A program made the position numbers and the translations under genes. A DNA stretch of 64,000 bases from Aminobacter sp. HY435 (GTDB lineage Bacteria > Pseudomonadota > Alphaproteobacteria > Rhizobiales > Rhizobiaceae), in NCBI RefSeq assembly GCF_027568395.1, contig NZ_JANKZL010000009.1, positions 186,001 through 250,000 on the forward strand. Direction: 5' to 3'. The notes under the pieces are model-generated. The model saw only the letters and a list, made by a program, of their open reading frames with translations. It was not told the DNA's origin and did no database searches. Shown here in pieces: positions 17,107-18,653 of this stretch (within the stretch, counting starts at the first letter, position 1; each line of letters starts with the position of its first letter).

Positions 17107-17523
17107 ATGGTCGCACAGAAGGGCAAGGACCTTCTGCTCAAGATCGATAGCAACGGTCTGGGCAGCTTTGTGACGGTCGCGGGCCTGCGCTCCAAGCGCA
17201 TCGCCTTCAACAGCGAGACGGTCGACGTCACAGACGCGGATTCGGTCGGACGCTGGCGCGAACTGCTCGCCGGCAGCGGCATCCAGCGCGCCTCCATAAG
17301 CGGGTCCGGCATCTTCAAGGACCAGTCGTCGGATGCGCGTATCCGGACATGCTTCTTTGGCGGCGACATCGTCCGCTGGCAGCTCGCGGTTCCGGACTTC
17401 GGCATTGTCGAGGCGCCATTCCAGATCACGGCGCTGGAATACACCGGCAATCACGATGGCGAGATGACGTTCGAGGTGGCGCTGGAATCCGCCGGCGTCG
17501 TCGGCTTCTCGGTGACGCCATGA
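17107..17523 (+). CDS. Major tail tube protein (GTA gp9)
   Basis: A 138-aa tail tube subunit of the TP901-1/gp9 type: AQKGKDLLLKIDSNGLGSFV, TVAGLRSKRIAFNSETVDVT, GRWRELLAGSGIQRASISGS, GIFKDQSSDARI and QLAVPDFGIVEAPFQITALE. It forms stacked hexamer rings of the tail. It overlaps the start of gp10 as ATGA. No sign of damage. Confidence 0.93.
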   Translation: MVAQKGKDLLLKIDSNGLGSFVTVAGLRSKRIAFNSETVDVTDADSVGRWRELLAGSGIQRASISGSGIFKDQSSDARIRTCFFGGDIVRWQLAVPDFGIVEAPFQITALEYTGNHDGEMTFEVALESAGVVGFSVTP

Positions 17524-17861
17524 GCGCCAATCGCCGCCGCGGCGAGGTTGCCGCCGAACTGGACGGCAAGCATTACCGTCTATGCCTGACACTCGGCGCT
17601 CTGGCCGAGCTCGAGGCAAGCTATGCCGCAGACGATCTCTCGGCACTTGTCGAAAGGTTTTCGAGCGGACGGCTTGCCGCTTCCGACATGATCAGGATCA
17701 TCGGCGCCGGTTTGCGCGGGGCCGGGCAGGACCTGCCGGACCAGGCTGTGGCCGCGATGCAGGCGCAAGGTGGAGTGGCGGGGTTTGCCGCCATCGTTTC
17801 GGATTTGCTGACGGTGACCTTTGGCGCGGTGCCGGCGACCGGGGACGCACAAAACCCTTAG
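17520..17861 (+). CDS. GTA gp10 family tail assembly chaperone (upstream frame)
   Basis: A 113-aa protein of the GTA-gp10 family (Phage_TAC_11): RRRGEVAAELDGKHYRLCLT, LGALAELEASYAADDLSALV, ERFSSGRLAASDMIRIIGAG. As in other siphophages it should coat the tape measure during tail assembly. It ends with NP and TAG 17859-17861. The seven bases before the stop read A AAC CCT (17852-17858) in the gene's own frame, a classic X XXY YYZ slip site. A -1 slip would run on into the frame of the next chaperone gene, giving a 188-aa fusion. Confidence 0.88.
   Translation: MSANRRRGEVAAELDGKHYRLCLTLGALAELEASYAADDLSALVERFSSGRLAASDMIRIIGAGLRGAGQDLPDQAVAAMQAQGGVAGFAAIVSDLLTVTFGAVPATGDAQNP
17852..17858 (+). promoter_or_regulatory. 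Candidate -1 ribosomal frameshift site A AAC CCT
   Basis: In the gp10 frame the last two sense codons are AAC CCT and the base before is A, so the heptamer is X XXY YYZ (AAA-CCC-T). After a -1 slip the next codons are TTA (17858) and GAC (17861), which is exactly the frame of the following ORF. The TAG stop directly after the heptamer would favour pausing. Efficiency of this heptamer is not known to me. Confidence 0.5.
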
Positions 17862-17905
17862 ACGCCGCGGCGGGCAATGGCGCGGAGTTTCCCTGGGACC
17901 ATGCC

Positions 17906-18085
17906 ATGGCCGCGGGGTTCGGCCTGCTGCGGCTGTCGCCCGCCTCGTTCTGGGCGATGACGCCACGCGAACTGGAGCGCGCGATGAGCGTGCTTTCGCA
18001 GGGGCGAGGGAACGCGCCGCTGCGCGTACAACTGGAGACATTGATGGCAGCCTTTCCGGACAATCGGGAGCCAAATCATGGCTGA
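17906..18085 (+). CDS. rcc01693-like tail assembly chaperone (downstream frame)
   Basis: Matches the short rcc01693/Phage_TAC_6 type chaperone (MAAGFGLLRLSPASFWAMTP, then RELERAMSVLSQ and LMAAFPDN). From ATG 17906 it is 59 aa. However, the frame is open without a start codon back to the gp10 stop, and the upstream part (GAEFPWDHA) resembles the N terminus I recall in homologues. No ATG, GTG or TTG is available between 17858 and 17906. So it may be made mainly as a -1 frameshift fusion with gp10, as lambda gpG-gpT is. The stop overlaps the tape measure start by eight bases. Confidence 0.8.
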   Translation: MAAGFGLLRLSPASFWAMTPRELERAMSVLSQGRGNAPLRVQLETLMAAFPDNREPNHG

Positions 18086-18653
18086 AGGGGTCAAGATCGA
18101 GATTTCCGCCGATACAGCTCCGTTCCAGAATGCGCTGAAGTCCCTCGAGCGACTGTCGGACAGTTTCGGCGCCCAGCTGACCGGGGCGATGAAAAGTGCG
18201 GTGGTCAGCGGCCGCGAGCTAGACGACGTGCTCAGGCGGATCGGATTGAACCTTGCCGGCATGGCGCTCGAGCAGGGGCTGAAGCCTCTGCAGTCGCTGG
18301 CGGGATCGATGTTCTCGGGACTGCTCAACGGGCTGCAGAACATCCTGCCTTTCGCCAAGGGCGGAGTGACGGGGGGCGTTGTGCCATTCGCCTCGGGCGG
18401 TGTCGTCTCTTCGCCAACCTATTTTCCTGCTGGCAGGAACATCGGCCTGATGGGCGAGGCGGGAGCGGAAGCGATCCTGCCGCTGCGTCGATCCGCCGAC
18501 GGCAGTCTCGGCGTTTTGGCGCCGGGAGGCGGCGGGGCGGTGAATGTCGTCTTCAACGTTACTGCCCAGGACGCGGCTTCGTTCCGCAAGTCCGAGGCGC
18601 AGATAACAGGCATGCTGGCGCGCGCGGTGTCGCGCGGCGCACGAACATTCTGA
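18078..18653 (+). CDS. Short tail tape measure protein (GTA gp11)
   Basis: A 191-aa tape measure, far shorter than in usual siphophages (often 600 aa or more) but normal for GTAs, whose tails are short. It starts with a charged helix (FQNALKSLERLSDSFGAQLT), has a hydrophobic Gly-rich middle (PFAKGGVTGGVVPFASGGVV) and ends with a helix (SEAQITGMLARAVSRGARTF). At about 1.5 angstrom per residue it would set a tail of roughly 30 nm; that is inference from phages. It starts inside the end of the preceding chaperone gene. Confidence 0.88.
   Translation: MAEGVKIEISADTAPFQNALKSLERLSDSFGAQLTGAMKSAVVSGRELDDVLRRIGLNLAGMALEQGLKPLQSLAGSMFSGLLNGLQNILPFAKGGVTGGVVPFASGGVVSSPTYFPAGRNIGLMGEAGAEAILPLRRSADGSLGVLAPGGGGAVNVVFNVTAQDAASFRKSEAQITGMLARAVSRGARTF

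Follow-up and report, generated by a model that had tools for sequence, protein, structure and literature searches.

The window, the whole 64,000-nucleotide stretch of DNA analyzed here, carries an RcGTA-type gene transfer agent (GTA) head-tail cluster, in which PF05521, PF11367, the tail tube protein, both tail chaperones, the tape measure protein and PF09343 (DUF2460) follow one another in order, with the remaining genes of the cluster noted as open reading frames only. All features described here lie on the plus strand. The tail tube gene g9 (17107..17523; PF06199, 2e-44) is the upstream neighbor of gp10 (17520..17861), the first tail chaperone, whose 113-residue product of normal termination matches PF11836 (Phage_TAC_11; 5.9e-30), a family described in Pfam as tail tube protein GTA-gp10. 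Searching with gp10 returned only matches with E ≥ 0.11 among PDB sequences and four records in a phage collection. The second chaperone is encoded in the −1 frame relative to gp10 and ends with a stop codon at 18083-18085, which is overlapped by the start of g11 (18078..18653), a tape-measure-like protein that matches a PHROG tape measure family (9e-15) and nothing in Pfam.

The gp10 frame ends with CAA AAC CCT TAG (17850-17861). As a preliminary description of this DNA had noted, AAC CCT together with the preceding A forms a slippery heptamer of the type X XXY YYZ, A AAC CCT (17852..17858), with the stop codon (17859..17861) adjoining it on the 3′ side. That description proposed a programmed −1 frameshift into the second chaperone, and its account of the junction holds: a −1 slip enters a frame without stops that carries a chaperone domain (PF09550/TIGR02216; PF09550 at 6.4e-18), and the part read after the slip (17858..18085), a linker followed by the domain, adds 75 residues to gp10, giving the predicted 188-residue fusion. 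It was also right that the −1 frame holds no ATG, GTG or TTG from the slip site to the ATG at 17906. No start codon occurs in this frame in the 120 nt 5′ of Phe 17888, the first residue of the PF09550 domain, and the frame is open back to an ATG at 17582, deep within gp10. Many relatives have TGA as the stop, which in the window would create a TTG in the −1 frame.

The ATG at 17906 lies inside the PF09550 domain. Translation of the second chaperone could in principle begin at this codon, leaving the preceding stretch untranslated, as two deposited phage-labelled records annotate it and as the presence of ATG at domain codon 6 in 64 of 84 related loci (those with AAACCCN, introduced below) would allow, but such a start discards the FPW motif. 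This motif, which the preliminary description had taken, as FPWDHA, for a skipped part of the chaperone, does belong to PF09550 and is conserved at the protein level in the same 84 loci (F in 81, P in 82, W in 81). The internal start was rejected on the grounds of this conservation, and we consider it very improbable. Partly because the window has no start codon between the slip site and the domain, yet FPW is conserved, we favor a programmed −1 ribosomal frameshift that yields a gp10-chaperone fusion, and put its probability at roughly 0.92. Among the points against a frameshift, the C at position Y of the heptamer is unusual under the classic slip rule, in which Y is A or U; phage data in the available part of one study showed no such limit (PMC10885494). 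CCT would be natural in this heptamer, and the shifted codon CCC would be expected to pair better with a GGG anticodon.

The junction was compared with those of related loci. PF11836 matched in 142 of 201 relatives, from which 30 and 100 loci were taken, and in 52 of 387 genomes of a class-wide sample, from which 30 loci were taken; a scan of named genomes contributed the best 80 of 444 encoding stretches, and a search of the genus added five loci. With L001 and the window, the set comprised 247 sequences. Both genes were detected in 241, giving 223 distinct junctions, where rows were merged only if identical over the junction and near-identical rows remain in the counts. The six sequences dropped for lack of a detected second chaperone (L130, L131, L149, L160, L245 and L246) include second PF11836 copies in genomes with a GTA cluster, possibly prophage genes. 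The second frame lies at −1 in 208 of the distinct junctions, at +1 in 10 and in the same frame in 5.

The preliminary description named conservation of the heptamer and of the missing start codon across related clusters as support, and the comparison largely bore this out. AAACCCN occurs near the end of gp10 in 84 of 223 junctions, a class that includes L144, whose shift site is probably T TTC CCT, and a few far-upstream matches (−30, −39) that may be incidental. Within this class no start codon lies within 60 nt of the domain in 39 loci, but 45 have one, often a TTG overlapping the stop. Another 32 junctions have N NNC CCT or N NNC CCC at the stop, 24 with TTG and 8 without, two of the latter being canonical heptamers (GGGCCCT and GGGCCCC). 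GGGAAAN is found in 12 junctions, T TTC CCT at the FPW codons in 16 and another heptamer without a start in 9; 46 lack the named motifs but have a nearby start, and some of these contain another heptamer; 15 have a different frame relation and 9 have none of these features. The observations that the preliminary description had named as speaking against a frameshift, a missing slip heptamer or a normal start before FPW, are absent from the window and present in some relatives, so the arrangement is lineage-specific.

In the window's genus, PF11836 matched in only 5 of 10 genomes, the window's own included, so the cluster seems absent from the other five. AAACCCT TAG recurs in three of the four other genomes of the genus with the cluster (L030, L032 and L042), and the heptamer in the window is therefore not a sequencing error. 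The fourth, L056, reads GGACCCT TGA and lacks a canonical heptamer, with a TTG overlapping the stop and both arms of the RNA stem described below kept; its heptamer may have been lost or never gained. The absence of an own start codon near the domain could also mean that the window's lineage has stopped making the second chaperone and that the junction is decaying. However, PF09550 is matched in an open frame and the same three genomes keep the heptamer, stem and frame, making decay the least credible of the explanations considered.

The heptamer is strongly concentrated at the end of gp10. In the 208 junctions with a −1 relation, the 19,795 codons of gp10 bodies contain 3 in-frame AAACCC, compared with 85 at the 3,952 positions that make up the last 60 nt, and the frequency of any X XXY YYZ heptamer rises from 0.16% to 4.15%. 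Where gp10 has Asn-Pro in its last 48 nt (n = 92), 85 cases have A immediately 5′ of the Asn codon, against 12.7 expected from codon usage, and this A is contributed by 11 different preceding residues; Asn is encoded by AAC in 91 and Pro by CCT in 74. In 60 of the 84 AAACCCN loci the heptamer runs up to the stop, and in the rest it ends up to 39 nt 5′ of it; this variable distance indicates that what is kept is the nucleotides rather than the protein end. In a tree of 252 rows, to which 30 Rhodobacteraceae-like loci had been added, a canonical heptamer is present in 76 of 93 rows without a start within 60 nt, compared with 62 of 159 with one. Against a frameshift, 15 of the 208 −1 junctions lack both a canonical heptamer and a start nearby. 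Phylogenetically independent pairs from the FastTree tree run in the expected direction, but their number is too small to reach significance (median p 0.25, 0.25 and 0.22). Where CCY directly precedes the stop, 62 of 91 junctions have an overlapping start codon, whose presence has changed at least 19 times by parsimony on the FastTree tree, counting weak branches too.

These starts raise the alternative that translation is coupled, with ribosomes restarting the second chaperone at an overlapping or nearby start (TTGA, GTGA, ATGA) and the heptamer being incidental. In the 45 AAACCC loci with a nearby start, reinitiation could add to a frameshift or replace it, and the 24 loci with TTG and N NNC CCT/CCC at the stop, the 46 that have a start but lack the named motifs, and 29 of 30 Rhodobacteraceae-like loci are equally compatible with coupling. 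The window itself has no such start, and the sequence upstream of the heptamer bears on the relatives. In the AAACCCN group, predicted pairing with the anti-Shine-Dalgarno (anti-SD) sequence reaches a mean peak of −5.47 at −10/−8 before the heptamer, compared with −1.82 in gp10 bodies, and an SD core falls at −20..−8 in 57 of 84 loci, compared with 17% of body windows. At the level of the group, then, an SD-like site lies ~10 nt 5′ of the heptamer. Its strength is similar in loci without a start (−6.25, n = 39) and with one (−6.50, n = 45), and the peak ends ~15 nt before the would-be TTG, whereas it ends ~3 nt before the start in Rhodobacteraceae-like loci. The same peak with or without a start, and its distance from the TTG, argue that the site serves slipping rather than initiation. 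In the window the corresponding site, GGGGA (17841..17845, 7-11 nt 5′ of the heptamer), is weak and off the group peak, with an anti-SD energy of −5.7 for the 8-nt segments whose last bases lie 6 and 4 nt 5′ of the heptamer; a second SD-like stretch lies further 5′ (−5.3 for the 8-nt window ending at −18). Reinitiation at TTG as a general mechanism was rejected for the window and remains a rival for the relatives. Overall we regard coupling with an incidental heptamer as improbable.

The frameshift reading gains further strength from a predicted RNA stem that, like the SD-like site, the preliminary description had not seen. In the window its 5′ arm, GCCGCGGCGGGC (17864..17875), begins after a 5-nt spacer from the heptamer and pairs at 12 of 12 positions, across a 46-nt loop, with the 3′ arm GCCTGCTGCGGC (17922..17933), which encodes GLLRL of the second chaperone. 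Across the 84 AAACCCN loci, positions +12 to +21 from the start of the heptamer read GCCGCAGCNG. The 5-nt spacer falls within the 5-9 nt expected between heptamer and stem in a dnaX-like cassette. The 5′ arm is complementary to the Leu-Leu-Arg-Leu codons of the second chaperone, and codon choice is skewed in both arms. The Ala codons of the 5′ arm are GCC in 76 and GCA in 58 of the 84 loci, although GCA makes up 9% of Ala codons in gp10 bodies. Arg14 of the second chaperone is CGG in 74 of 75 Arg codons, compared with 28% in gp10 bodies, and Leu15 is CTT in 48 of 79, compared with 13%; the Arg codons listed for the 46 start-type loci are CGG in 11, CGC in 13 and CGT in 4. A nucleotide-level role for the TTT CCC codons of FPW was also considered and dropped, since TTT accounts for 295 of 616 Phe codons in gp10 bodies.

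The arms pair at a mean of 10.33 of 12 positions, compared with 7.54 (sd 0.15) in a synonymous-codon null, 9.42 (sd 0.085) when arms are permuted and 3.7-6.9 when they are slid. In an alignment of 78 of the 84 rows (leaving out L034, L035, L048, L121, L144 and L152), the covariation score is 0.230, compared with 0.122 (sd 0.010) in shuffles, none of 500 of which scored as high, and 0.098 in the best slid version. Eight of the 12 pairs changed on both sides, a count that does not stand out alone, as shuffles average 5.4 and one slid version reaches 10. RNAalifold found no consensus pairs in the gapped 78-row alignment and a 7-bp core of the same stem in 33 ungapped rows of equal length. The AAACCCN junctions also fold more stably than expected (z = −3.60 over 83 loci, compared with −0.48 and −0.26 in control stretches), and z is −3.60, −2.99 and −4.18 in the three groups that have AAACCCN, or CCY ahead of the stop, compared with −0.45 to −1.15 in the other groups; T TTC CCT and G GGA AAN junctions show little extra structure (−0.71 and −1.15). 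The stem is present in the minimum-energy fold of the window and of 70 of the 84 loci. Taken by itself, the window folds only modestly more stably than shuffled versions (z = −1.82; 10 of 200 did as well).

A pattern search of IMG/VR returned 79 contigs, of which 76 run on into the chaperone, one is cut by the contig end and two look like chance matches. They hold 75 distinct junctions, 8 already in the set and 67 new. The 5′ side had served to select the contigs, which leaves the 3′ arm alone as an independent test; in the new junctions the Arg codon is CGG in 67 of 67 and at least 10 of 12 pairs form in 66 of 67. All eight loci that have CCY before the stop and neither TTG nor AAACCC also keep the stem, with 10 or more of 12 pairs, which again speaks against coupling. 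Loci that keep the stem with neither a canonical heptamer nor a TTG are L083, L085, L097, L200, L202 and L217, an example being TTCCCCC TGA in three Agrobacterium records.

Other lineages without a nearby start have T TTC CCT or G GGA AAG/AAC instead. A slip site on the FPW codons (CCT TTC CCT GG), with gp10 ending past the motif, is seen in L135, L137, L140, L142, L145, L146, L207, L222 and L230, as well as L144. In L142, L144 and L146 the −1 frame has a stop only 9-12 nt 5′ of FPW and no start after it, so that a shift, if there is one, would fall within the few codons around CCT TTC CCT. The Rhodobacteraceae-like family, whose tail tube protein matches Rcc01691 (245 bits), differs: 29 of its 30 sampled loci have a nearby start, and frame relations are mixed, the 30 loci being −1 in 17, +1 in 11 and same-frame in 2. 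The sole locus without a nearby start is L250, where gp10 ends past an FDW motif. Both genes were detected in seven of the eight loci fetched as best Rcc01691 matches, and all seven have a nearby start. The best tail tube identity to Rcc01691 in the samples was 91%, R. capsulatus itself not being recognized among them, and the sampled genomes nearer RcGTA appear to start the second chaperone separately.

From the observed anatomy of the junction, its conservation and covariation and the missing start codon, we infer that the ribosome slips here, at what rate, what each signal would contribute and how the two products could divide their labor. Most ribosomes would terminate at the TAG at 17859 and release the 113-residue gp10, and a fraction would slip back one base on A AAC CCT, with Asn-tRNA re-pairing from AAC to AAA and Pro-tRNA from CCT to CCC, to make the 188-residue fusion. 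The slip would be promoted by the SD-like site on the 5′ side, the stop directly after the heptamer and the 12-bp stem 5 nt 3′, the 3′ arm of which lies within the coding sequence of the second chaperone. By analogy with lambda gpG/gpGT, the short form may coat the tape measure protein, and the long form, made less often, may in addition recruit the tail tube protein. No Lys or Arg lies between Arg66 of gp10 and the Arg of the chaperone LLRL, and the predicted chymotrypsin peptides are GAVPATGDAQNPL for the fusion and GAVPATGDAQNP for the short form. We give about even odds to a broader proposal: domesticated alphaproteobacterial GTAs would keep a dedicated RNA signal of three parts that controls the proportion of the two chaperone forms and is retained as an alternative start comes and goes. 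In lineages lacking a canonical heptamer this signal would work as well, with the Pro codon (CCT or CCC) alone able to re-pair cleanly and the long-range stem driving the slip.

If this is correct, a form of phage tail-assembly control has persisted in a DNA-transfer particle that became domesticated and is encoded by the cell, and ordinary initiation can take its place, as loci near the model RcGTA suggest. The heptamer and stem would offer a mutable switch for testing whether the ratio of chaperone forms matters to tail building and gene transfer. A frameshift would also explain why the second chaperone is annotated in truncated form, beginning at the internal Met that follows FPW, in the two deposited phage-labelled records (L277 1887 and L278 1908). 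Both records carry AAACCCTTGA and the arm pair GCCGCAG / CTGCTGCGGC.

In keeping with the preliminary description, which knew of no such report for rhizobial GTAs, the portion of openly licensed PubMed Central full text that was covered contains no account of a frameshift joining the two GTA chaperone genes, and none is described in the parts available of PMC8718954, PMC9022992, PMC9765227, PMC10721106, PMC4276943, PMC10127595, PMC3556154 and PMC7296036. Related material, likewise from partial texts, includes most R. capsulatus phages described, which have the usual tail-chaperone frameshift in an account whose available part does not mention RcGTA's own genes (PMC8601537), an HK97-like tail chaperone cluster with 6-7% frameshifting measured (PMC3711429) and a Wolbachia hydrolase with a proposed +1 shift (PMC10299305). 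The kind of frameshift is known from phages; as far as these searches reach, the way the signals are combined and their occurrence in a GTA are new.

The closest parallel is lambda G/GT. As there, the window has two chaperone frames between the tail tube and tape measure genes, in a −1 relation (as in 208 of the 223 junctions) with a heptamer at the end of the first frame, and its second frame lacks an own start, which part of the relatives have. The lambda gpG/gpGT system, the tail-chaperone frameshift of long-tailed phages, was reportedly described by Xu, Hendrix and Duda in 2004. Lambda's own heptamer is G GGA AAG, which some related GTA clusters share. In contrast to lambda, the window's locus belongs to a chromosomal, domesticated GTA, its A AAC CCT has C at position Y, an SD-like site and a long-range covarying stem accompany it, and several lineages have a separate start. 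The architecture of the −1 cassette of E. coli dnaX, an SD-like site on the 5′ side, a heptamer and a stem on the 3′ side, is shared as well. According to the available part of one review, G GGA AAG is highly shift-prone in E. coli and occurs in the g-t genes of an archaeal virus, and dnaX combines an A_AAA_AAG heptamer with a stem loop, a 5′ SD stimulator being implied (PMC5009743). Unlike dnaX, the window has a different heptamer, no homology, a 46-nt loop and a 3′ arm that encodes the new domain. Homologous genes occupy the same place in RcGTA itself, as g10 and a second chaperone (g10.1 or g10.5; rcc01692/rcc01693), tail chaperones 1 and 2 being named g10 and g10.5 in the part available of one paper (PMC11409702); in contrast to the window, the sampled RcGTA-like loci nearly always have a nearby start for the second gene, and their frames are mixed.
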